From positions 152,615-216,614 of the forward strand of contig PGYV01000007.1 of assembly GCA_002839855.1 (NCBI GenBank): 64,000 bases of DNA, in the 5' to 3' direction. The DNA is from Candidatus Goldiibacteriota bacterium HGW-Goldbacteria-1 (lineage in GTDB: Bacteria; Oederibacteriota; PGYV01). The position numbers were made by a program, and so were the translations under genes. Below, piece after piece: positions 48,671-61,138 of this stretch (positions within the stretch are counted from its first letter, which is position 1; each line of letters starts with the position of its first letter). The notes below the pieces were generated by a model that made no database searches, was not told the origin of the DNA, and saw only the letters and a program-made list of their open reading frames with translations.

Positions 48671-51316
48671 TTACTTCATAACCGCCATTTTTCCAAAGAC
48701 GTATTTTTTCTCATCCCCGTTAACGGCATCTATTTTATAAATATAAACTCCGGATGACACGCGTTCACCCGCGTCATTCAAGCCGTCCCACAATGTTTTA
48801 TTTACTCCCTTAACCCCGTTTATGCCGTCTATCTTTCTTATCGTTTCACCGGATATTGTAAAGATTTTAATTGTGACATCCGCGCGTACAGACAGATGAA
48901 AAACAATTATTGCCTCTCCATCGGTCGGATTTGGATATGTGACGTCTTTTTTAAGTTCAAGGTCGGGCACAATTGCCGCAAGCGTTGTCTGGTTTGAAAC
49001 AAAAGCGTAAGCCGCCACATCGCAGTTGGAAAGCGCTGTGTTATAAAATTTTTCGTTTTTATTAATTGAATCATCAAGCATCGCGGTAAACGAATAATCA
49101 ATATAACTGCCCACAGGTATGGTTCCCGTGCTGAAAGACACAACCCTGTTTACCGCGTCATAAGTACCGCCCGCTATATAAGTGTGTTTTGGCGGCAGAG
49201 TATCCCAGATAATTACATTATCAGCTGCAATAAGCCCCGCGGCATTGGAAGCCCTTATTGTATAGGTTATTGTATCGCCTGTGGCCGCGCTTGACGGCGC
49301 AACTGATTTGGACATTACAAGAACCGGAAGAATAGGCGTAGGGGTCATTGTTAAAGTAACTGTCATTGTCATGGTGCTTGTAACTGTAATTGTGGGCGTA
49401 ACTGTAATTGTAATAGTGTCAGTGGGGGTTATTGTCGGCGTTATTGAAGGCGTGCCGCAAGGTATGTCATACATAACGCTGTTTGAATTTATTATCGGAT
49501 TAAAATCATTTGCTTTAATCGCGCCTGTGTTTGTTATCTGGCCGCAGGAATTAATCACGCCGCTCCACATTAAAATATCTGCGCGGTCTGTCTGCAAACC
49601 GGGATAAAGCCAGCTTACAACACTTGAAACACCATCATAAACCGCCGCATCGTGAACGCCTGCAAGCGCGCCTGTTCCGTCAAGATATGTTATTTCAGCA
49701 GGCACGGTGTCAAATATAACAGCGCCGGACGCTATCGGGTTGCCGCTTATAACTTTCAAATTATCATAATAATTGAAATTATCGGGGTGCCCCTGAAAAC
49801 CCACATATCCGCATCCGGGCATCTGCGTATAAGTTGCATTTGCAGTGTCTGTGACAGCTAACATCCACGCTGCAGGTTCAGCGGTTCCTTTAATCCACGT
49901 TTTAGCCCAAAGGCCTACAGAATTTCCTGAAAGGCTCATTACCTGAACTTTTACCGTATACCACTGGCTGTCACTTACTGATATTGCATTGCTGTGCCAG
50001 GAAGCCGGAGAGTAAGGCCCTGCAACTCCCGGATTTGTTTTCTGAAGATAAAGGTCGCCCGGCGTATGGTCTCCGGAAATACCCACACCATACGAAAGAG
50101 CCGGAGCTGTATTGCTGTGCCTGAAAGATATTAATCCGTCTTCATATCCGCCTGCTCCTACATAAATATCAGCCTGAACTATACCGTCGCAAAAATCCGT
50201 TGGAGTGTCCCTTAAATATTGAGGATATGACCCTGCTCCCTGTGAAGGCGAATAAAGATAACCGCTTCCGGCGCCGTCGCTCATCCAGCTCCATGACCCG
50301 CCGCTTACCGGATGAAAACCGGTTATGGGATTTGAATCAAATGTATCATAAGATTTAAGGCTGTACCCTGTCAGCGAAACACTTAACGTGTATGTAACCG
50401 TATCGCCAATCTGTGCTGTCGCGGGCTGCTGGCTTTTATTAAAAGCAAAAGGCCTTATAACCGTCACCGTTGTATCATTGCTTGTGCCGCTTGTTGACGC
50501 GCTGAAAGTATCAACCAGTGTCCAGTCAGCCGAGTTATTTATAATTGTCCCCGGCACTGCTGCCGCATCCACGCTTACAAGAAACCATACTTTTTCACTT
50601 TTTCTTTTTGTTACTGCAGGCAGTGTCCAGGTAAGGGCTGAACCTGCAGCTGTTCCGGAACTTGTTCCTCCCGGACTTATCTGCTGAAGAGTACAGTTTG
50701 GCGGCACCATATCTGTGATTGTAAGGCTGTTTGAATTTACATAACTGTAATTTAAAGTGTAAAGGACAAGCCCTCCGGGTATTACTGTTGAAGCTTCCGC
50801 GGTTTTTGTCAAAGATGCTGATGCAGGCGGAAGAGGTACTGTAAAAGGATAATTAGCCTGCGAAACCGGCAGAGCGGATCCTGAATCAACAAAATCCCTT
50901 TTGCCGCCAATTAAAATAAAATATGGGCCGCCTTCAAGTGTGTCAGGTATATGAAATGTATATGACGCGGGGCTTGCAATAAGAGAAGCTCCGTTTCCAT
51001 CACCCATTCCGTTACCGCTTGAAGCGCTTATAGCTCCGTCACCTGTACCGCCAATATCTACAATTCCATTTGCCACTTTAAAGGTCTGGCCTAAGGTGCT
51101 TCCGCTTTGAAAAGTTCCAACCGTTGATACTGCTGCCAGAAAGAAACTCTGATTCCACACATCGCTTGTCCTGTCATATGTAAAATTCACTGTTACCAAA
51201 TCGCCGGCATTAGGGCTTGGAGGAACCACACTTACAATTGTAACATTACTGACTTCTGCCATTACAGGCGCGTACAGTGTTATTAACAGAGCCAAAAGGC
51301 ACAGTATTTTTTTCAT
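48671..51316 (-). CDS. Large DUF11-repeat surface protein with FlgD-like C-terminus
   Basis: An 881-aa exported protein. ATG 51316 (MKKILCLLALLITLYAPVMA) follows GGGAGAT; a longer frame to 51385 is unlikely. Three DUF11-type units (TLNYSYVNSNSLTITDMVPPNCTL; DTVTYTLSVSLTGYSLKSYDTF; DTITYTIRASNAAGLIAADNVIIWDTLPP) are present. The second unit is split by a concanavalin/LamG-like insert (CDGIVQADIYVGAGGYEDGL to NFNYYDNLKVIS). A Thr-rich linker (TPTITPTDTITITVT) and a FlgD/T9SS-like end with the VKIFTISGETIRKI block and LWDGLNDAGERVSSGVYIYK follow. A cell-surface or secreted structural/binding role is likely. Confidence 0.85.
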   Translation of the reverse strand: MKKILCLLALLITLYAPVMAEVSNVTIVSVVPPSPNAGDLVTVNFTYDRTSDVWNQSFFLAAVSTVGTFQSGSTLGQTFKVANGIVDIGGTGDGAISASSGNGMGDGNGASLIASPASYTFHIPDTLEGGPYFILIGGKRDFVDSGSALPVSQANYPFTVPLPPASASLTKTAEASTVIPGGLVLYTLNYSYVNSNSLTITDMVPPNCTLQQISPGGTSSGTAAGSALTWTLPAVTKRKSEKVWFLVSVDAAAVPGTIINNSADWTLVDTFSASTSGTSNDTTVTVIRPFAFNKSQQPATAQIGDTVTYTLSVSLTGYSLKSYDTFDSNPITGFHPVSGGSWSWMSDGAGSGYLYSPSQGAGSYPQYLRDTPTDFCDGIVQADIYVGAGGYEDGLISFRHSNTAPALSYGVGISGDHTPGDLYLQKTNPGVAGPYSPASWHSNAISVSDSQWYTVKVQVMSLSGNSVGLWAKTWIKGTAEPAAWMLAVTDTANATYTQMPGCGYVGFQGHPDNFNYYDNLKVISGNPIASGAVIFDTVPAEITYLDGTGALAGVHDAAVYDGVSSVVSWLYPGLQTDRADILMWSGVINSCGQITNTGAIKANDFNPIINSNSVMYDIPCGTPSITPTITPTDTITITVTPTITVTSTMTMTVTLTMTPTPILPVLVMSKSVAPSSAATGDTITYTIRASNAAGLIAADNVIIWDTLPPKHTYIAGGTYDAVNRVVSFSTGTIPVGSYIDYSFTAMLDDSINKNEKFYNTALSNCDVAAYAFVSNQTTLAAIVPDLELKKDVTYPNPTDGEAIIVFHLSVRADVTIKIFTISGETIRKIDGINGVKGVNKTLWDGLNDAGERVSSGVYIYKIDAVNGDEKKYVFGKMAVMK

Positions 51317-51378
51317 ACTTATCTCCCTTAAATGCAGGTTTATTGATATATTTTTAATTATATGCCATGTAATCGCTA

Positions 51379-51407
51379 TTTTCAATACATATTATTTCTG
51401 TTATACT
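51379..51407 (+). promoter_or_regulatory. Leaderless promoter of the Lgt-like gene
   Basis: TTTTCA (51379-51384), 17-bp spacer, TATACT (51402-51407), then only 6 bases to the ATG at 51414. There is no Shine-Dalgarno. Same geometry as the uvrC start. Confidence 0.6.
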
Positions 51408-51413
51408 TTATTC

Positions 51414-52124
51414 ATGATACCCACAATAACCATAGGAAACTTGCAGCTTGATTCATATCTGTTGTTTATTATAATTGCGGCTGTGTCCGGTTTTGCCTTT
51501 TACCTTTCCGGGCTGTCCGGAACAAAAAAAGAAAAAACCATAACACACGCTTACGTGCTTTTTTTTGCAGCTGCTTTTATAACAGGCGCGGTTTTTATTC
51601 CAAAAATATTTGGCATACAGGGAGCTTCTTTTTCTGCCGGTATTTTTCTGGCCGTGCTTGTTTCAATACCTGCGGTTAAAAAATACAGTACGGGTTTATT
51701 TCACGCTTCTGACAGTTCAGTGGCGGCAGCCGCGCTTGGGCTTTCCATAGCAAAATTGGGCTGCCTTTTTAAGGGGTGCTGTTACGGCATTCCGGCTGAC
51801 CCGCAGAAAACCTTCACAGTTTTCTATCCCGAAACATCCGCGGCTTTTGAAAAATTTTCAGGTGTCCCCCTTTTACCCTCTCAAATATACCAGTCGCTGG
51901 CATTTTTTATCATATTTATTGTCCTTATTAAGCTTACTAAAACAATACCATTTTATAAAACTGCAGTTTTTCTGATATTGTCATGCGCTGTAAACTCCCT
52001 TATTTTATTCACCAGGCCTGTCAGTTCATCCGAATTATGGCTTTTTCTTATACTTAACTGCCTAATCTGCCTTGCAGCTTCTATTATGCTTATAATAGGA
52101 AAGCACACTAAAACAAATACCTGA
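51414..52124 (+). CDS. Lgt-like prolipoprotein diacylglyceryl transferase family protein
   Basis: A 236-aa membrane protein with about seven hydrophobic segments. SIAKLGCLFKGCCYGIPADP matches the Lgt signature block GCxxxGCCYG-like, and FSGVPLLPSQIYQSLAFFIIF matches the PxQ/YE region of Lgt. The Arg and His residues central to E. coli Lgt (H103, R143) are not evident at the expected place, so it may be a divergent Lgt-like member of another function. It stands ahead of the pilin operon but has its own promoter. Confidence 0.7.
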   Translation: MIPTITIGNLQLDSYLLFIIIAAVSGFAFYLSGLSGTKKEKTITHAYVLFFAAAFITGAVFIPKIFGIQGASFSAGIFLAVLVSIPAVKKYSTGLFHASDSSVAAAALGLSIAKLGCLFKGCCYGIPADPQKTFTVFYPETSAAFEKFSGVPLLPSQIYQSLAFFIIFIVLIKLTKTIPFYKTAVFLILSCAVNSLILFTRPVSSSELWLFLILNCLICLAASIMLIIGKHTKTNT

Positions 52125-52132
52125 CGAAATAC

Positions 52133-52161
52133 TTGACATAAGTTATATTTGTGTATATAAT
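52133..52161 (+). promoter_or_regulatory. Consensus sigma-70 promoter of the pilin operon
   Basis: TTGACA (52133-52138), a 17-bp spacer and TATAAT (52156-52161), both perfect. AAGGA lies before the ATG at 52197. Confidence 0.85.
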
Positions 52162-52196
52162 TACTATGGATTTAACTCCGTAAAGGAAGTGGTTGT

Positions 52197-54275
52197 ATGA
52201 AGCTTTTTAGAGAATCTAAAGGCCTCACTTTCATAGAAGTAATTATAGCTTCTTTTGTAATAATATTTTTAGTAATGGGTTCTTTAAATCTTATCACAAG
52301 GGTATATAACGATATTTTTGCATCCCGCGTAAAAACATATGCTTTTAACATTGCCGCTGAAAATCTTGAAAACCTTAAAAGCTATAATTTTGGCGCTTTA
52401 AAAATTACCCCGGATGATTTATTGCCTTACCCTCTTACAAAACTGGAAAGTGATTCCAATCCCTGGGGAAACCCGGACGACCCTTCAAATATTCTTCCTG
52501 TAGGCGGGATTAAAATGAAAGTTTATAAAATAGTCCAGAACGCGGAAGAAGATGGCGAAAGCAATATTGTGGGGCGCACGCAGTCAGACCTTCCAATATC
52601 AAACCTTAAAAAAATAAAAGTTGTTATTGCTTATCAGATAAAAAGTGCTTCCGGCGGTTTTATGGACAGGACTACAGAACTTGAAAGTTTTGTATCAAAC
52701 CCGGAAAGCCAGATGTCAGGCGCCACCATACGCGGCAGGGTTTTAAGAAAAGAACGCAGCAACCCTAATGCTAATCCGGCACCGCCCGGACATGCTACTA
52801 AAAGTTTTGTACATGTTGAAGGGCACCCTGAATACACGGTTAAAGTTGGAACAGAAGCCACAACGCCGCAGGAACGCGGCTACTATACAATTTATAATGT
52901 ATTGCCCGGAACATATAATTTATATACACAGGGTGACGGTTATGAAAAATCTGATTACAAAGATAACCCTGTAGTAATAGAAATTACAACAAATAACGTC
53001 AACGGTATTAATTTTACAGCGCCTGATATTCAAGAAGCTTCAATATCCGGAACAATATTAGATTCTTCCGGAAATCCTGTTAATGTCAACGACTATAAAA
53101 AAGAATCGCGCGAAATACGCGCCGATGACGGAACATCTTTTACCACAACCGCAGACACTCATGGAGATTACCTTATTTCCGGCATAAATCCGGATGCAGG
53201 TTCAGTTTCGGTAACTGCTATTTTTACACATAAAGATACAGGCGTGACATATTACGGCGCTTATCCCGGAAGGGTGAATGTGGGCAATAATTCTAATATT
53301 ACAAATGTTAATATCACCCTTCAGCCGGTAACAGGCAATACTGCGGTACTTATGGTGCAGGCGCTTGATGCCAGGGACAAATCCACCCCTATCGGCAATA
53401 TAAATATTGTGTTAAAAAATGTTGTCACTGACGCGGTTATGTATACAGCCACAACCGCGCCGGTTTCGGGAATTGCCACAATTCTTGTCGATGTGGGCAA
53501 TTATAAACTTACAGGTGCCGGTAATTATTACGTGCCTGAAGAACCCACAAAATTTATTTCCGTGGCAGCAGCCCCCCCGTTAATTAAACTTTATTTTTAC
53601 CCAAGCGGAAGCATAAGCGGGCAGCTAATTGATTATGATACCAATCTTCCTCCGGCAGGCCCTATTAACCTGCAGGCTTACAGCGAATACAGCAGGCTTG
53701 TAGGCAGCGCGTCTTCTGACACAATTACAGGACAGTACCAGTTTGACGGCGTGTGGGCGGGTACTAACAACGTGGTGCGCATTTACCCGGACGCTTCTTC
53801 TTACGCGGGATATCCGGATGAAGGCGCGGAAGCCATATATTCAATTTTAGTCACACAAGGCAACGTGACGCCAAATCAAAACTTTACCGTACAGGTTAAC
53901 GCTAAAGAAGTTTCCGGCAAGCTTCAAATAAGCGCGCCGGGCGTGGGAAACGATATAATGGACGGCGCGATGATAATAGCGCAGCCTTCAAGCATAACAA
54001 CACCTCCGCATACTTACACGCTTGACAGTGTAAACCCGGATGAAAAAATTCAGACATCCTTAAAAAGAAAAAGAATGCAGTTTTACGGATTGGTTTCCGA
54101 GAGGACAGGCGCTTATAAAATAATGCTACCGGCAAACACAGACTATGACATCTATGCTTACTATTCCTATGTATCATATCCGGCATCAACTATTTTAAAA
54201 TACTATAAAAAATTGTCCGGAGTGACCCCTCCTTCTGAAGACCAGGATTTTAGCGGAGCATGGATCACTTATTAA
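52197..54275 (+). CDS. Very large prepilin with carboxypeptidase-regulatory-like domains
   Basis: A 692-aa type IV pilin-like protein. The leader KG|LTFIEV gives a class III prepilin peptidase site after G9 with E at mature +5 and a hydrophobic helix to about residue 35. The body holds beta-sandwich CarboxypepD_reg-like repeats (IRGRVLRK, YYTIYNVLPGTYNLYTQGDGY; ASISGTILDSSGNPVN, DYLISGINPDAGSVSV; GSISGQLIDYDTN, GQYQFDGVWAG; EVSGKLQISAPG). Pilins are usually 120-200 aa, so it would be a tip or decorating minor pilin exposing a long beta-rod. It is first of four same-strand genes. Confidence 0.88.
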   Translation: MKLFRESKGLTFIEVIIASFVIIFLVMGSLNLITRVYNDIFASRVKTYAFNIAAENLENLKSYNFGALKITPDDLLPYPLTKLESDSNPWGNPDDPSNILPVGGIKMKVYKIVQNAEEDGESNIVGRTQSDLPISNLKKIKVVIAYQIKSASGGFMDRTTELESFVSNPESQMSGATIRGRVLRKERSNPNANPAPPGHATKSFVHVEGHPEYTVKVGTEATTPQERGYYTIYNVLPGTYNLYTQGDGYEKSDYKDNPVVIEITTNNVNGINFTAPDIQEASISGTILDSSGNPVNVNDYKKESREIRADDGTSFTTTADTHGDYLISGINPDAGSVSVTAIFTHKDTGVTYYGAYPGRVNVGNNSNITNVNITLQPVTGNTAVLMVQALDARDKSTPIGNINIVLKNVVTDAVMYTATTAPVSGIATILVDVGNYKLTGAGNYYVPEEPTKFISVAAAPPLIKLYFYPSGSISGQLIDYDTNLPPAGPINLQAYSEYSRLVGSASSDTITGQYQFDGVWAGTNNVVRIYPDASSYAGYPDEGAEAIYSILVTQGNVTPNQNFTVQVNAKEVSGKLQISAPGVGNDIMDGAMIIAQPSSITTPPHTYTLDSVNPDEKIQTSLKRKRMQFYGLVSERTGAYKIMLPANTDYDIYAYYSYVSYPASTILKYYKKLSGVTPPSEDQDFSGAWITY

Positions 54276-54296
54276 ATAAAAGAAGGGCTGATAAAA

Positions 54297-54953
54297 ATGA
54301 AAAGATTTAAAAAACACACAGGCGGCTTTACCCTGATAGAAGCTTTAATAGTAATTGCCATAATGGGCATAGTAACATCGGGCCTGGGCCAAATGCTTAA
54401 TACGGCAATATACGCGTGGAACTTTGGTTCCGCAAATATTGCCGTCAATATGGAAGGCCGCAACGCCGTCACCGCGCTTACAAAATTCATGCAGTACGCT
54501 CAAGCGCCCACTATAAAAATTTCAAGAATAAATACCAACCAGCCTGCAAACAGTTATGTGTCCGGAAAACTGGCGGAAACTGTTTACGTCACCACATCAA
54601 GCCCGGGCAGCTGCGGATTTACCACATCTGCTTCCGACATGGTGGGCGGCGCCGGAGCTGAAGTGGAAATGTTTCAATACGGCAGAAAACTTTACGCGCG
54701 CGTACCAAAACTTGCAGCGGGGTCTTCCATATCCAACCCGTCCACAATCAACTATACCTATACTTATATGACAGTGACTTCAAACCTGGATTCATTTATG
54801 GTTACATTCAACGATTCAAAAAAAGAAAAATCTGTCTCCGTGGCAGTCAGGCTTTCAAAAATGGTTTATAAAAACAGGCCGCCTATACGGGTACTTTTAA
54901 AACAGCAGATTGTGTTAAAACACAGCACTTCTGCGGGATTTTACGGAAATTAA
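54297..54953 (+). CDS. Minor prepilin (PilW/GspJ-like)
   Basis: A 218-aa protein with leader GG|FTLIEALIVIAIMG: cleavage after G10, E at +5, followed by a hydrophobic helix. The rest is a beta-rich domain with an NMEGRNAVTALTKFMQYAQ helix and SVAVRLSKMVYKNRPP near the end, in the style of GspJ/PilW. It lies 21 bases after the large prepilin and 15 before the next gene. Confidence 0.85.
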   Translation: MKRFKKHTGGFTLIEALIVIAIMGIVTSGLGQMLNTAIYAWNFGSANIAVNMEGRNAVTALTKFMQYAQAPTIKISRINTNQPANSYVSGKLAETVYVTTSSPGSCGFTTSASDMVGGAGAEVEMFQYGRKLYARVPKLAAGSSISNPSTINYTYTYMTVTSNLDSFMVTFNDSKKEKSVSVAVRLSKMVYKNRPPIRVLLKQQIVLKHSTSAGFYGN

Positions 54954-54968
54954 ACAGGAGGACTTATA

Positions 54969-56840
54969 ATGAAAATAAAAAATTCAGACGGGCAGATACT
55001 TGCGACAGCCCTTATCGTGGGCGCTGTCATTGCTATCCTTGCATATGCGCTGCTTTTTCTTTTTCAGCAGGAATCAAAAATGCTTGTAAAAACAATGGAT
55101 ATAACCCGCAAGCAGGAGCTTGCTTCTATAGGAATGGAACACGCGCGGTACAAAATGCAGCTTCAGAACAACTGGTATAATGTTCCAATGACCGGATTTA
55201 AATATGATGAAGAATATGAAATACCGGGGCTTGGTTCCTACGCAGTAACAATTGAAAAAGGAAATTTATTTATGATAGATAACGTACGTCAGGGCAACGA
55301 AGAATACAGGACTATAGGAGTTAAAGTTAAAGTTTACCCTTCCGGCGAACTTCACCAGTTTTATGGCGTAATTAAAAAACTTGGCTACGGCGGGCCGCTT
55401 ATTTCCAAAGGTAAAATCAACCTGCCCTGCACAAATGATTCAATAGACGCCAACGGCATTCCTATGTATGGTTTTTTCTGGGGTGATGTCTACCACGCAA
55501 ACAGAACAGACGATACTTTTCACTTCCCATACATACCCGTGGCAATGGGAAGCACCACTCCCAAAGCCTGGGGTCCTGCCGTATATTCAGCTTCAAATAT
55601 TTACACTGCTTACGGTAAAAATGGCGGCAATTACCAGTTTGGTTACGTGGGCGAAGATATGAGCCCTACTGCAAAATCACACCCTTATTCCCCTATGGCT
55701 ATAGCGCCGCAGCTTTCCCTTCAGGCATACAAACAGCTTGCATATGAAAAAGGCAATTATTACGGGCCGGCAACAGTCGGCGGGTCAGGCACAGCCAATC
55801 CTTTTTACATTAACGACGGCCTGCACGACCTTGCGGATTTAAACAGCGTGGCAATTCATAACGCGCTTAAAACCACTTCCGACGTCCTTTTTGTTGACAC
55901 CACAGACGCGCTGCCATTAAGGGTTCCTGAATCGCCTTTAACGCCCACCAATACCTATTGCGGCACAACTTATGTTTCCGCGAACACAGTGGCTGTCTAT
56001 TACAACGCTTATTCCCAGCTTTACACTGTAGGGTCAATGATAATACAGGGGCCTTTGGTTTTAAAAGGCGCTGACCCCGGACCGGAACCTGCTAATAATG
56101 AAAAAGACCCTTTATTGCCTTTCTGGCCCACTTTATTGGGTATTGATATTCCTTCAAATTATTATTACCCGCAGGAAGATACAACAAACCATCTGGAATT
56201 TGACACCAAGGGATTTCTTGGCTCTGCCCTTAACAATATTAAACACGCCGGCTTTATGTACATAGACGGAGAATTGAAAATTGGCGGCGTGCGGTGCAAA
56301 ACAAGCACCTGTGATAATACTACCGCAGAAAAAACAAATGCCATTGCATCTGCAAAACCTTCGCTTTTTACAAAAATTAAAGCAGCCGCTTCTAAACTTA
56401 TGGAACCACCAGCTGTTTACGCAAACTGGAAAGATGATGCCACGGCAACCGCTGTGGCCGGAACATTAACGGCAGTTGCCACTTTAACACCGCAGATAAC
56501 AAATACCCCCGTTGCTACAAATACACCCGGCGGGCCTACTGAAACACCAACGGTGCCTGTTCCACCCACTGCAACAGTAGGGGTTGTACTTGGCACACCC
56601 ACACCGCCTGCTGACTGCGACGGAAAGACAACAGTTTCAGATATTGTAATATTCGGTACTTTATATATTGGCGAACACGGCTCCCTTTCCATAGATACAG
56701 TTAATGACACTCCAAGGCTTGCGGTATATTTTAATATGAACGCCAATGCCTTCTCTTACCTTCAGAACAGCGTATCTCTGCTTTCTTTCAGAGAGCTTAC
56801 ATACCTTATTCCGACGCCGGTTCCGGAATACCCGTTCTGA
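54969..56840 (+). CDS. Pilus-associated PilX/GspK-like protein
   Basis: A 623-aa membrane-anchored protein. DGQILATALIVGAVIAILAYALLFLF is a pilin-like N-terminal helix but lacks the +5 Glu, as in GspK and some PilX tip proteins. A large beta-rich body follows, with a cysteine-containing region (GGVRCKTSTCDNTT, about 440) and a Thr/Pro linker near 505-545 (TPQITNTPVATNTPGGPTE). It fits the end of a minor-pilin set that primes or caps the pilus; no GspK calcium site is obvious. AGGAGG precedes the ATG. Confidence 0.75.
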   Translation: MKIKNSDGQILATALIVGAVIAILAYALLFLFQQESKMLVKTMDITRKQELASIGMEHARYKMQLQNNWYNVPMTGFKYDEEYEIPGLGSYAVTIEKGNLFMIDNVRQGNEEYRTIGVKVKVYPSGELHQFYGVIKKLGYGGPLISKGKINLPCTNDSIDANGIPMYGFFWGDVYHANRTDDTFHFPYIPVAMGSTTPKAWGPAVYSASNIYTAYGKNGGNYQFGYVGEDMSPTAKSHPYSPMAIAPQLSLQAYKQLAYEKGNYYGPATVGGSGTANPFYINDGLHDLADLNSVAIHNALKTTSDVLFVDTTDALPLRVPESPLTPTNTYCGTTYVSANTVAVYYNAYSQLYTVGSMIIQGPLVLKGADPGPEPANNEKDPLLPFWPTLLGIDIPSNYYYPQEDTTNHLEFDTKGFLGSALNNIKHAGFMYIDGELKIGGVRCKTSTCDNTTAEKTNAIASAKPSLFTKIKAAASKLMEPPAVYANWKDDATATAVAGTLTAVATLTPQITNTPVATNTPGGPTETPTVPVPPTATVGVVLGTPTPPADCDGKTTVSDIVIFGTLYIGEHGSLSIDTVNDTPRLAVYFNMNANAFSYLQNSVSLLSFRELTYLIPTPVPEYPF

Positions 56841-56842
56841 TA

Positions 56843-58606
56843 ATGGTCGATAAACGCAATATTTCTCTTCAAAATTATCTGTTTTACGGAATTTTTCTGT
56901 GCATCCTTACTTTTACACCCTTATTTTATGATATGTATCAGCTGCCGAAAGCATTATTTCTTACAGCAGGATGCGCTTTATATATCGCTGTTTTTTCTTT
57001 TTTTCATAAAAAAATAAATTTTGGTTTCACTGCTATTGCCGCGGCTGCATTTATGCTTTATATATCACTGCGCACCCTTTTTTCATTTGATAATTTTCCG
57101 CCTGTTTATTATCTTCTGACTCTGCTTGCACCGGCGGCTTTTTTTATGCCTTTGATAACAAAAATAAAAGCCGGTAATTTTCTTTTTTTCATAAATATTA
57201 TTTCTTTTGTATCTTCTATCTACGCAGTTTTCCAGTATGTAAATACAGGTGAGCGCCCCATATCCTTTTTTGGCAACCCCGTGTTTCTTGCGGAATTCAC
57301 TGCATGCCTTTTTCCTCTTATTCTTGTATCCCTGCTGGCATATAAAAAATACAAGCTTTTTACCGCAATCAACCTGTGTTTGTCATTGCTTGTACTTGCT
57401 TTAGCTTCTTCCAGGGGCGCCATATTATCGCTTGGCGTTTCACTTTTTATTTTTTTATATCTGTCAGTCTCAAATAAAGCTTTTGCGGTAATTGACAAAA
57501 AGAAGACTGCCATAATTTTACTTATTACTTTTGCCATATTTACAGCCATAACTTTTTTTCCCCGTTTTAAGCCGGCAGTTACCTACAATATAAACAGGGC
57601 TCTTGAAGTTACCCATGGCGGCGGCGCTTCCCTTTCTAACAGGGCTGTCATATTAAAAACAGGGCTTAAAATGTCAGCGGAAAAACCTGTTTTCGGGTTT
57701 GGAACGGGCGGATTCAGATATTATTTTCAGAAATATCAGGTATCTGTGATAACCGCTGAAAATCCCTCTTTTATAAACACTTCTTACGCCCATAACGATT
57801 ATCTTCAGCTGCTTGTGGAAACAGGCGCTGCCGGGCTTTTGCTTTTCCTGTTATTTGTATCCTCTCTGCTTATTTCTTTTGACAGGACTAAAACTTTAAT
57901 TATCAATCAGGATAAACCGCCGGCTTACGCGCTTTTGGCATCCGTAATATTTTTTCTATGTGAATCAATGTATAATTTTCCGCTTTTCATAATGCCGTCT
58001 GCGTTTATCTTCTGGCTTTTCTGCGGCATTCTATATTCACTGCCAAAAAAAGAAAATAAACAAATACAACTGCCTTCTCCTTTTCTTACATTATTAATAG
58101 TGCCGGTATTTATTTATCTTTTTATTTCCATTATGCCTGTTGCGGCAAACCTTCATATTAAAAAAGGCTTTACCGCTCTTCAGAAAAAGACAAATATGGA
58201 AATGAAGCATTTTGACACAGCCCTGTTGCTTGAGCCCAATAACTTTTATACACGCTATTACAGGGGATATTCCCTGCTTAATAATAACAGACATAAAGCC
58301 TACACAGAATATGAAGAAGCATTAAAAATATACCCCTATTCGGCAGATATGCTTTATAACCTTGGCGCCATGCATCTCTCGGATAACCAAAATGAAAAAG
58401 CTGAATTTTATCTAAAAAAATCGCTTGAACTTAACCCTTATTTTGGAATGGGGCATACAGCAATGGCAATGCTTTATATGAAAACAAAAAGAGAAAATTT
58501 GGCATCTGCGGAACTTTATCTTGCCGCCAAATATGACCCAAATTCCCTTGGCAGGGGCACCGACCAGATAATAATGATGATGGAAGAGACAAAACTTAAA
58601 CCATAA
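56843..58606 (+). CDS. O-antigen ligase/Wzy-type membrane protein with C-terminal TPRs
   Basis: A 587-aa protein with about 11 membrane segments. The Wzy_C/O-antigen ligase blocks are visible: SSRGAILSLGVSLFIF (cytoplasmic-side helix), NRAVILKTGLKMSAEKPVFGFGTGGFRYYF and AHNDYLQLLVETGAAGLLLFLL. After residue about 440, TPR repeats follow (NFYTRYYRGYSLLNNNRHKAYTEYEEALKIYPY; SADMLYNLGAMHLSDNQNEKAEFYLKKSLELNPY). Starting two bases after the PilX-like gene, it is coupled. In other bacteria such proteins (PglL/TfpO) O-glycosylate pilins; that role here is inference from position. Confidence 0.85.
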   Translation: MVDKRNISLQNYLFYGIFLCILTFTPLFYDMYQLPKALFLTAGCALYIAVFSFFHKKINFGFTAIAAAAFMLYISLRTLFSFDNFPPVYYLLTLLAPAAFFMPLITKIKAGNFLFFINIISFVSSIYAVFQYVNTGERPISFFGNPVFLAEFTACLFPLILVSLLAYKKYKLFTAINLCLSLLVLALASSRGAILSLGVSLFIFLYLSVSNKAFAVIDKKKTAIILLITFAIFTAITFFPRFKPAVTYNINRALEVTHGGGASLSNRAVILKTGLKMSAEKPVFGFGTGGFRYYFQKYQVSVITAENPSFINTSYAHNDYLQLLVETGAAGLLLFLLFVSSLLISFDRTKTLIINQDKPPAYALLASVIFFLCESMYNFPLFIMPSAFIFWLFCGILYSLPKKENKQIQLPSPFLTLLIVPVFIYLFISIMPVAANLHIKKGFTALQKKTNMEMKHFDTALLLEPNNFYTRYYRGYSLLNNNRHKAYTEYEEALKIYPYSADMLYNLGAMHLSDNQNEKAEFYLKKSLELNPYFGMGHTAMAMLYMKTKRENLASAELYLAAKYDPNSLGRGTDQIIMMMEETKLKP

Positions 58607-58630
58607 TTTTTTTTAAATTTAAAAAACAAA

Positions 58631-58660
58631 AAGCCACAGGTTTTAACCTGTGGCTTTTTT
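58631..58660 (+). terminator. Intrinsic terminator of the pilin operon
   Basis: AAGCCACAGG (58631-58640) pairs with CCTGTGGCTT (58647-58656), followed by a T run. It ends the plus-strand operon between convergent genes. Confidence 0.9.
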
Positions 58661-58738
58661 AATTTATTTATCCAACTGCATCATTTAGAAAGCGTTTATT
58701 TTAACACGCTCGAAGGTGCAGTAAAAATATTTTGCATT

Positions 58739-60523
58739 TTAAACAAAAATCTTAGCTATTACCATTTCCGGGTTGTTGCCAAGTATTCTCTGTACCATTG
58801 CGTCTTCTTTTACGCACGCCCTTACCATTTCTTTGGACTGTTCATAATTTCTGTTTGTATATTTAAGGATAGTGTCGCGTACTTCCGTGGGCTCTGACTG
58901 CGCCACATAGGTTAAAAGCAATTTAACATTATTTTCCATGCTCTTTACCGTAGCATACCTTAAAAGCACGTTAATTTTACGTTTTGACATTTTAGGCGGA
59001 GGCCCAAGCCCGTTTAACGCGTTAAACATAAAGTCCATGTAATCCTGGACCGCGTCATCGCGCGACGCGGCGTCCACAAGCTCCGCGCTCATTACCATGT
59101 TCATTTTCTTATCCGCTCCGGTCCATTTTACCTGGGCTGTTTTTTCTATTTTTCCTGTGTAGTCTCCCATAAACGTACCTTCGTTTATTTCACCGCGGTA
59201 GTCATAAACCGGGTCTTTTGCAAGGTACATTCCTATGGCTTTCATAACCTGAAAATCAATGGGTGAAAAAGTAACATAAGCGCCTTTTTTTCCTGATTCG
59301 CCGCTTACAAAACCCATAACAAACCTGTCTTCAAGAAAATCCACATAGTTTCTTAACGGTTCAATAAGGATAGGCGGAATTTTATAATTGCCGTCTTCAT
59401 CAATAGGGAAAGCGTTTGTGTGAATGGAAAGGATTTTCTTCAGCGATTCTATCACATTATGCGGCGTGCACAGATAGTTTGTCATTGCAGTCGGCATATC
59501 TATAATCTGGCTGTTTAAAAGTATCCTGGCGCCGGAATATGGCACTCTGTTGCCGGCTTTTTCCGCCGCAGTTACAATAAAACTGTTAAGTATGCTTATG
59601 TCTTTTTTTATTATTTCAACATGTTCCGGCCTGAAAGAATCAAATACCCTTGAAGACTGATCCGCAACCACATCTGATACTTTTGACAGGTCATTTTCAA
59701 GTTCCTTAATTACATCAACTTTTTCTTTAATGGCATCAACGCTTTCAGCAGACCTTGTAAAAGTTTCGGCGTACATTTTTGTAAAATCCGCAAGCACTTT
59801 TGCCATGCCGTCGCTTCTCATTGCAAGGGCGGACTTAAGCTTTTTTTCTTCGGGGGTGACCCTTTCGCCCTTCGCAAGAATTCCCATATATTTATCCAGC
59901 GCGTCAAAATTAAGTTTTAAAGTTTTAAGTTTTGTAGCATCAAGCTGCAGCATTTTATCTATATTTGTGCCAAGCGTTCTTACAAGGTTGGCTCCCGCTT
60001 TTAACGCGTCATTCTTTTTCCATTCAAGTTCGGCTTTTACTTTTTTCGGGTCGCGTATGTCATCTTTTTTTCTTTTCTTTTTTCCGGATGTGTCTATCAG
60101 TTCAATGTTACCTTCGGCAAGCGCCCTCATTTTATCCGGAACGCTGAAAACCACCTGAGACAAAGCGCTTAAAGAATCCTTTGTTTCAAAAGCTTCAAGC
60201 AGCTGTTTGTAAATTTCCGGGTCAAGCAGGTTAATTCTATTTTCGCCGATTTCTACAAAATCACCGATAGCGCCGGTGGCAAGAAAAAGCCTTTGCTGTT
60301 TGTTCAGATCATTCAACCTTGTATTAACCAAAGCGGTAATAAGGGTATTGTAAGCCGTCCTAAGCTTATTTACTTTTATGACATCTTCTATTTTATTGCC
60401 GTTATCTGATTTCTCTTTTCCAAAAAATTCAAGGGCTGTCATTACCCCGTCTTTAACTGTCTGATCAATACCTTCAAGAACGTAATTTATTGCTTCACCT
60501 TCTTTGATTGCTGTTTCAGACAT
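58739..60523 (-). CDS. Unknown 594-aa cytoplasmic protein
   Basis: I do not recognise this family. It is a soluble, mainly helical protein with no signal peptide or membrane segment. Charged coiled-coil stretches occur around 150-280 (KKRKKDDIRDPKKVKAELEW; KVDVIKELENDLSKVSDVV), and the C-terminal part has repeating helices (VLLRYATVKSMENNVKLLLTYVAQSEPTEVRDTILKYTNRNY) that recall HEAT-like repeats. A strong GGAGG lies before the ATG. It is the last gene of the cyclase/cNMP run, after a terminator-like hairpin, and may be the target or output of that pathway. That is inference from position. Confidence 0.75.
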   Translation of the reverse strand: MSETAIKEGEAINYVLEGIDQTVKDGVMTALEFFGKEKSDNGNKIEDVIKVNKLRTAYNTLITALVNTRLNDLNKQQRLFLATGAIGDFVEIGENRINLLDPEIYKQLLEAFETKDSLSALSQVVFSVPDKMRALAEGNIELIDTSGKKKRKKDDIRDPKKVKAELEWKKNDALKAGANLVRTLGTNIDKMLQLDATKLKTLKLNFDALDKYMGILAKGERVTPEEKKLKSALAMRSDGMAKVLADFTKMYAETFTRSAESVDAIKEKVDVIKELENDLSKVSDVVADQSSRVFDSFRPEHVEIIKKDISILNSFIVTAAEKAGNRVPYSGARILLNSQIIDMPTAMTNYLCTPHNVIESLKKILSIHTNAFPIDEDGNYKIPPILIEPLRNYVDFLEDRFVMGFVSGESGKKGAYVTFSPIDFQVMKAIGMYLAKDPVYDYRGEINEGTFMGDYTGKIEKTAQVKWTGADKKMNMVMSAELVDAASRDDAVQDYMDFMFNALNGLGPPPKMSKRKINVLLRYATVKSMENNVKLLLTYVAQSEPTEVRDTILKYTNRNYEQSKEMVRACVKEDAMVQRILGNNPEMVIAKIFV

Positions 60524-60634: not shown

Positions 60635-61063
60635 TTATAATGCGTTTTTAGACTTTCTTTTGGCCAGTTCTTCTTTGATTATAGCAGATATCTTGGGGTT
60701 GGCAAGAAGTATTTTCTTAAAAGAGTTCTTATGCAGTACAAACAGTTCTGTAGGGGCCTCTGCAATAACAGTGGCATTTCTTGGGGCATCTGTAACAAGT
60801 GCTGTTTCGCCAAAAAAATCACCTTCAGCCAGGCCTGCCACTTTTTTTTCTGACATTCCTTTCTTTATATGTATGGATACCGACCCTACCGATATCATAT
60901 AGAAAGCATCGCCGGTTTCACCCTGTTGAATTACCACTTCGCCTTTTCTGAATTTCTGCTTTTTCATGGCTTTAATCAGTTCATCAAGCTGCGCGAAATT
61001 TAAGGAATAAAAAAAATCAACTTTCTTAAGTGTTTCCCTTAACTTTGTAATGTCATCTGCCAT
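60635..61063 (-). CDS. Stand-alone cyclic-nucleotide-binding protein
   Basis: A 142-aa single-domain protein of the CAP_ED/cNMP-binding fold. GEVVIQQGETGDAFYMISVGSVSIHI is the beta-roll start, and GDFFGETALVTDAPRNATVIAE is the phosphate-binding cassette with the ribose-binding Glu and the phosphate-binding Arg present, so cAMP or cGMP binding is plausible. No HTH or enzyme domain follows, only a short Lys-rich helix. It lies in the same direction as the class III cyclase gene upstream, a likely source of its ligand. Confidence 0.9.
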   Translation of the reverse strand: MADDITKLRETLKKVDFFYSLNFAQLDELIKAMKKQKFRKGEVVIQQGETGDAFYMISVGSVSIHIKKGMSEKKVAGLAEGDFFGETALVTDAPRNATVIAEAPTELFVLHKNSFKKILLANPKISAIIKEELAKRKSKNAL

Positions 61064-61138
61064 CTTTTGCCCCCGGTATTTTTTTTAAATTCATTAACAT
61101 TATATATTTTGTCAGTTATTTTGTCAATATTACTTTTA

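Follow-up and report, generated by a model that had tools for sequence, protein, structure and literature searches.

More than 1,200 modular type IV pilins have been catalogued, and PF13620, a family with a predicted carbohydrate-binding-like fold, is among their common modules (PMC8179133). Extra domains can also sit inside the pilin fold, as in ComZ, a tip pilin in which a solenoid is placed between the last two strands, and in GspK, which has an inserted helical domain (PMC6561018). The tip complex is described as being capped by a subunit without glutamate at position 5 of the mature protein (Glu5), both in a review (PMC10191384) and in work on Streptococcus sanguinis (PMC9934059), and PglL genes were reported beside pilin genes in 21 of 31 cases (PMC3643930). 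Here, we analyzed a 64,000-nucleotide stretch of DNA from Candidatus Goldiibacteriota bacterium HGW-Goldbacteria-1 (assembly GCA_002839855.1, contig PGYV01000007.1, positions 152,615 to 216,614, forward strand), referred to below as the window, and focused on an operon of four genes (genes 1 to 4; window positions 52197-58606). The overall best explanation, which we favor with some reserve, is that these genes specify a type IVa pilus tip, glycan transferase included.

Gene content and predicted pilins of the operon

The four genes are all on the + strand and are separated by gaps of 21, 15, and 2 bases in gene order; a sigma-70-type promoter precedes them and a strong intrinsic-terminator-like hairpin follows, the symmetry of which may also allow it to serve the convergent gene (Table 1). 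Based on the tight gaps, the promoter, and the hairpin, genes 1 to 4 are very likely to form one transcript. A first-pass annotation, made from the letters alone, had described consecutive, coupled genes under a perfect consensus promoter, encoding a giant minor prepilin with beta-sandwich repeats, a normal minor prepilin, and a Wzy_C/TPR membrane protein, and all of these elements were recovered in the present analysis.

The 692-residue product of gene 1 has the class III signal peptide with Glu5 and the hydrophobic helix that characterize modular pilins, with a prepilin motif, G|LTFIEV, that was read by eye, and it carries an extra domain that is not specific to pili. Pfam identified CarboxypepD_reg (PF13620) at 39.1 bits (cut-off, 32.3 bits). 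The N_methyl model scored under its cut-off with the window's own protein (10.8 versus 21.2 bits) and above it with two relatives (L077, 26.6 bits; L080, 23.1 bits). In the structure model (mean predicted local distance difference test [pLDDT], 76; predicted template modeling score [pTM], 0.42), a 50-residue helix (residues 12-61) is followed by a pilin-like sheet (approximately residues 99-167) and then by a row of beta-sandwiches reaching the C terminus. Within this row, residues 383-470 resemble the transthyretin-like domain of carboxypeptidase D (1qmu; Z, 11.5; root mean square deviation [rmsd], 1.9 over 83), and residues 470-568 resemble SdrD B-type domains (8vdk; Z, 11.0; rmsd, 2.4 over 93). 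ComGE is an I-type subunit, and it was the best of the sole, weak NCBIfam matches in all three gene 1 homologues tested, accompanied by PilV in the window's own protein; gene 1 therefore points to the I position. Against Escherichia coli pilin profiles, GspG came first (90.4) and GspI second (79.3). PHROGs returned no match for gene 1 or gene 3. The best reading of the sequence and model is that gene 1 would be a modular pilin with several carboxypeptidase-regulatory/Cna-like sandwiches.

Gene 2 encodes a normal prepilin of 218 residues that exceeds the Pfam N_methyl cut-off. GspJ and PpdB scored equally against it (88.8), below GspG (92.0), which would be consistent with the J position, the match being mostly to the common pilin helix.

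Gene 3 had been singled out in the first-pass annotation as a PilX/GspK-like protein lacking glutamate at position 5. The second part of this description stood, as none of the 13 aligned homologues has the residue, and E. coli GspK and YgdB lack it as well. As to the first part, no PilX or GspK family match was obtained, and in hhalign comparisons with E. coli pilins GspK came first with a probability of just 11.0, so that gene 3 is called K-like here and is not filed as GspK or PilX. Nor is the missing Glu5 noteworthy as an anomaly, a view that we rejected because a capping subunit at the K position is expected to lack this residue (PMC10191384, PMC9934059). In a second-look structural alignment with the low-confidence gene 3 model, the top 7 of the 50 listed entries were all pilins, namely S. 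sanguinis PilA (Z, 9.3; rmsd, 3.3; 108 aligned, spanning model residues 37-610), ComZ (Z, 9.0; rmsd, 10.1; 290 aligned), Thermus PilA2 (Z, 7.5), EpsI/J (7.3), XcpV/W (7.1), the Xcp pseudopilus (6.5), and XcpVWX (6.2); the best non-pilin reached 4.8, and GspK alone was not among the 50 listed entries, a listing that does not speak against such a match. Since the pilin match runs from residue 37 to approximately 610 with about 100 residues aligned, the low-confidence model has a pilin fold broken by an insert of about 420 residues (approximately residues 138-557). Given the absent Glu5 and this inserted build, like that of ComZ and GspK, gene 3 may behave as a K-like tip cap.

Pilus machinery and proposed tip complex

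The first-pass annotation had suggested a search for the pil gene set outside the window, and the possibility that the genome has no pilus machinery, which that annotation had named as refuting its reading, was rejected, as the set is encoded elsewhere in the assembly (2.86 Mb, 18 contigs). One cluster on contig C3 encodes PilT, PilC, a PilA-like prepilin, a prepilin peptidase (PilD), PilM, PilN, PilO, and a PilQ-type secretin, with a 149-residue open reading frame (ORF) without family match at the PilP position. Two PilB-like ATPases are encoded on contig C4 and one on contig C15, and the genome accordingly contains the components of a type IVa pilus system (PilB, PilC, PilD, PilM, PilN, PilO, PilQ, PilT, and a major pilin). 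A search of the 14 order genomes and of the 45 of the phylum did not detect PilY1, but it detected none in the control genomes either and thus does not show its absence. Two further loci (L039:7075-9018 and L040:7086-9353) encode fusion proteins: a T2SSE ATPase that carries a CbiA/ParA-type domain at its N terminus, as if CpaE and CpaF were joined, and lies within a Tad-like cluster, and a PilT-like ATPase with TPRs fused to it. The GspI/J/K-like order and matches could suggest that genes 1 to 3 act as minor pseudopilins in type II secretion and not in a pilus; with a PilT retraction ATPase, PilM/N/O, and a PilQ-type secretin clustered with the major pilin, we find this very improbable, although no separate search was aimed at Gsp-specific parts.

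Instead, we propose that genes 1 to 3, which have the I/J/K gene order, represent an I-J-K-like minor pilin set that would be processed by PilD and form the initiating cap at the tip of the pilus. The pilus itself would be assembled on PilA by PilB/C/M/N/O/Q, and the genes for all of these lie at other sites of the genome. A location at the tip seems to us quite probable. The I-like subunit would contribute its C-terminal beta-sandwich arm and the K-like subunit the large domain inserted in its pilin fold, and with both on display the tip would expose two bulky modules. These would probably recognize a ligand on a surface. A polysaccharide is the likeliest candidate because of the module family in gene 1 and because one phylum member was captured by binding to cellulose; the report of that capture does not mention pili, and it treats FCPU426 as part of Goldbacteria (PMC7031533). 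DNA may be an alternative ligand, since ComEC is encoded in the genome. ComZ, which is among the best matches of the gene 3 model, is described as binding DNA (PMC6561018), and instead of acting as an adhesin the tip could accordingly receive DNA in natural transformation, the role of ComZ/PilA2 in Thermus. However, ComEC is widespread (10 of 14 control genomes), the gene 1 modules are of carbohydrate-binding-like/Cna type, and the cellulose-bound capture also argues in the other direction, which makes a DNA receptor improbable in our view.

Gene 4 and the proposed glycosylation of the tip

Gene 4 encodes a membrane protein with a Wzy_C domain (76.8 bits) and C-terminal TPRs, both above their Pfam cut-offs. 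Arg191, Arg267, and His317 are invariant in the 10 homologues aligned and are judged equivalent to R215, R288, and H338 of WaaL by their order and position in the Wzy_C stretch, not by aligning WaaL or PglL directly. A trio of this kind is important for WaaL and is also conserved in PglL (PMC3643930). Gene 4 thus presents both the Wzy_C domain and the Arg/Arg/His set of PglL-type O-oligosaccharyltransferases. A tree of 30 rows combined the 11 operon copies with 9 further Wzy_C proteins encoded in this genome and 10 taken from other families of the phylum; the tenth further Wzy_C place of the genome, C1:187052, which has the same listed 1093-residue frame length as C1:188252, was not entered separately. 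The operon copies formed one clade, apart from all the others, with 100/100 support; given this private clade, the view that gene 4 is a loose Wzy_C paralogue sited by chance was rejected.

The genome has 11 Wzy_C places, two of them directly after a prepilin gene, i.e., gene 4 and C3:90493. The latter belongs to what appears to be a second pilin and Wzy_C neighborhood of the same genome (G000:C3:88379-94446, equivalent to L035:8380-14446), where two PilA-like prepilin genes are followed by a 762-residue Wzy_C/TPR protein; one gene further on, past an ORF that looks NrdR-like by eye, lies a 606-residue Wzy_C/TPR protein.

We propose that gene 4 would be a dedicated transferase of the WaaL/PglL superfamily, acting on the periplasmic face (the outer face of the inner membrane) and most likely moving a lipid-linked glycan onto the tip pilins. 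This glycosylation step is plausible, although we stop just short of calling it probable. Linkers rich in serine, threonine, and proline (S/T/P) are present in gene 3 of this genome, where these residues make up as much as 60% of a 30-residue stretch, and in several of the long gene 1 forms described below, and such flexible stretches are possible acceptor sites.

Several observations weigh against a pilus tip equipped with its own transferase. The operon has no gene for an H subunit, and most N-terminal matches are to the generic pilin helix. Gene 3 matched no Pfam or NCBIfam family at E values up to 1 and no PDB sequence; its model is weak (mean pLDDT, 56; pTM, 0.53), and a plain Foldseek search with it gave nothing below an E value of 0.1, with ComZ ranked first. 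G044 shows S/T/P-rich linkers in neither gene 1 nor gene 3, and they were likewise not seen in gene 1 of this genome or in gene 3 of G033; a similar linker occurs in a surface protein of the window that is unrelated to the operon (48671-51385, - strand; 904 residues, with DUF11 repeats and a C-terminal FlgD_ig/type IX sorting-like domain). Finally, PglL_A (PF15864) and Wzy_C_2 were not among the Pfam matches of gene 4 at E values up to 1, so that it is not filed as PglL, and its family also holds O-antigen ligases and polymerases. Pseudomonas aeruginosa PilO is described as likewise unmatched by PglL-specific Pfam models (PMC3643930).

These features of gene 4 leave room for another explanation, in which the pilins still make a tip but gene 4 serves a surface polysaccharide, as an O-antigen ligase or a Wzy polymerase, and shares their transcript because the polysaccharide coat and pilus binding are under joint regulation. 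Wzy_C spans ligases, polymerases, and protein transferases alike (PMC3643930), gene 4 has no PglL-specific domain, and most of the Wzy_C places of this genome are away from pilins. Outside the order, none of the 17 best homologues fetched (L055-L071) lay beside a detected prepilin gene within flanks of approximately 1.5 kb. The tight, order-wide coupling of gene 4 to the same three pilins and its private clade weigh against such a scheme, as does the second Wzy_C gene that also follows a prepilin gene. We regard a role in surface polysaccharide as unlikely, yet deserving of weight, and retain a transferase acting on the tip pilins as the preferred reading.

Conservation and proposed replacement of the operon

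Gene 1 is present in 13 of the 14 genomes of the order, the exception (G036) being 61% complete, while only weak matches were obtained in 2 of the 31 other genomes of the phylum. The gene order was kept in all 13 genomes with gene 1; gene 4 is truncated by the end of the contig in G033 and G042, and in G041 genes 1 and 4 each run over two frames. Two length forms of gene 1 were observed, one of about 700 residues in six genomes and one of about 880 residues in seven (counting the split G041). In the long form, S/T/P-rich linkers enclose an additional module of about 165 residues, for which no Pfam match and one weak PDB match (E, 0.56) were found. A tree of genes 2 and 3 divides the 13 genomes exactly by gene 1 form (98/98), and the split cuts through genera. 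In 9 of the 12 readable order genomes (G033, with just 49 bases available, was dropped), the 150 bases preceding gene 1 contain a promoter-like site with at least 11 of 12 consensus bases, the mean in resampled sequences being 0.19, which argues that the promoter survives the heavy divergence of the operon genes.

This divergence is sharpest between close relatives. The long-form genome G040, of the same genus as the genome studied here (G000), is 66, 87, 89, and 88% identical to it over the genes of one flank, whereas the operon genes are 33-42% identical; grouping G040 with G000 and G039 was rejected (log-likelihood lower by 99; p-AU, 2e-70). In another genus, the genes next to the operon are 86 and 92% identical between G043 and G044, and the operon genes 30-42%. 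Ordinary divergence was rejected as the cause of both differences because the flanks contradict it. With one operon copy per genome, operon identities of 30-42% beside flanks of mostly 86-92% point to replacement of the whole cassette, which would be the simplest reading. Since one side was compared per pair (contigs end, or the other side differs), an ancestral duplication followed by loss may instead have produced the pattern. Under cassette replacement, the operon would both be passed down and be exchanged between lineages as a single unit.

Genes next to the pilins may take part as well. In 9 of 13 genomes, the operon is preceded by the Lgt-like gene in the same orientation (contigs end in G033, G037, and G038, and none was found in G043), and this gene probably belongs to the exchanged block. 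A UbiA-like gene is within the block in 6 of 13 genomes and a polytopic membrane protein gene downstream of the operon in at least 7 of 13; this genome and G039 have neither of these two. In relatives (L085:3789-5542), the Lgt-like gene, with its invariant GCC.G motif, and the chlorophyll-synthase-like UbiA gene adjoin upstream of the pilin genes. The polytopic protein (L080:6439-7977, L074:3627-5126, and others) has 415-512 residues, no Pfam or NCBIfam match, and a well-conserved FIRNFLEG motif near its N terminus. In P. aeruginosa TfpW systems, UbiA is linked to an arabinan glycan. A comparable reading of the UbiA-like gene, as a polyprenyl-phosphoribose synthase feeding arabinan, was rejected because its NCBIfam matches, far below cut-offs, are to chlorophyll-synthase-like and archaeal-lipid prenyltransferases and because the other UbiA (contig C7) is no close relative.

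More speculatively, Goldbacteria might possess an exchangeable pilus-tip cassette, in which three tip pilins, two of them giant, would travel with their own glycan transferase, joined in relatives by lipid enzymes that resemble UbiA and Lgt and by the undescribed polytopic membrane protein, and in which two architectures, with and without the 165-residue module of gene 1, would swap beside the same flanks. We offer this only tentatively; if true, a lineage would switch tip ligand and tip glycan together.

Feature coordinates and neighboring genes

Exact promoter matches with spacers of 16-18 bases occur twice in the whole window (0.04 expected). The second is at 61099-61127 on the - strand, just upstream of a gene (60635-61063) whose product looks by eye like a cyclic-nucleotide-binding protein. 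Downstream of the operon, the - strand gene at 58739-60523 encodes a 594-residue protein without significant Pfam match, whose identity between families of the order is 63-76%; the adjoining pilus operon is conserved far less well. Rfam gave no match over window positions 51000-59000, and no plasmid carrying gene 3 was found in a plasmid search. Two public records titled Candidatus Methylomirabilis and Spirochaetia (L090 and L098) carry the operon and match genomes of the same order; their titles therefore look wrong.

Table 1. Features of the pilus operon and its borders, in window positions
Feature	Position	Strand	Description	Basis
Lgt-family gene	51414..52124	+	Membrane protein of 236 aa with invariant GCC.G motif; upstream, same direction as the operon	
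Promoter	52133..52161	+	Sigma-70 type, TTGACA-17-TATAAT; 12/12 consensus bases	
Gene 1	52197..54275	+	Modular prepilin of 692 aa, I-like	ORF, Pfam, NCBIfam, structure model
Gene 2	54297..54953	+	Minor prepilin of 218 aa, J-like	Pfam, NCBIfam, profile comparison
Gene 3	54969..56840	+	K-like minor pilin of 623 aa without Glu5	Homologue alignment, structure model
Gene 4	56843..58606	+	Membrane protein of 587 aa; Wzy_C (WaaL/PglL/Wzy superfamily) and C-terminal TPRs	Pfam, alignment, tree
Terminator-like hairpin	58628..58659	+	Intrinsic type, 14 pairs, T-rich tail; closes the unit	

Comparison with known systems

The design had been put forward in the first-pass annotation as unstudied, which does not hold for its parts: modular pilins including PF13620 (PMC8179133), ComZ (PMC6561018), and pilin-linked PglL (PMC3643930) are all published, and every element of the operon has a precedent. 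What the present analysis adds is the reading of the 623-residue protein as a second giant pilin, the conservation across the order, and the probable cassette replacement. In the open-licence literature, we found neither a system that combines two giant tip pilins with a private Wzy_C enzyme and with cassette replacement, nor an extension of pilin-linked glycosylation from the shaft to the tip complex, nor a paper on type IV pili in Goldbacteria. The operon is a concrete candidate for substrate attachment in an uncultured phylum with a cellulose-bound isolate, and it offers a natural set of tip variants, with the tip operon exchanged beside neighboring genes that stay. Should the tip pilins be substrates of gene 4, pilin-linked glycosylation would reach from the shaft to the tip complex.

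Compared with the H-I-J-K tip complexes (GspHIJK, FimU-PilVWX), the operon shares the I-J-K gene order, co-transcription, and a K subunit without Glu5, but it has no H gene, its I and K subunits are greatly enlarged, and gene 3 has no sequence-family match. Gene 1 resembles modular type IV pilins such as S. sanguinis PilB and PilC, which are described as joining a prepilin N terminus to bulky domains not specific to pili, as having a likely tip position, and as including PF13620 among their named common modules (PMC8179133). It departs from them in having several sandwiches in series, in having another giant pilin and a private Wzy_C enzyme as neighbors, and in occurring in long and short forms within one order. 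Like ComZ/PilA2 of Thermus thermophilus (PMC6561018), gene 3 has no Glu5 and an adjoining partner pilin and would have a large domain inserted in the pilin beta-sheet; unlike ComZ, it has no sequence match to a solved structure, and its model is of low confidence. Gene 4 shares with PglL and TfpO/PilO, to the extent that the cited accounts describe them (PMC3643930, PMC11841053), the Wzy_C domain, the Arg/Arg/His set, and a place directly downstream of pilin genes, and it differs from both in its C-terminal TPRs, in having none of the PglL-specific domains, and in being linked to minor pilins instead of the major pilin.

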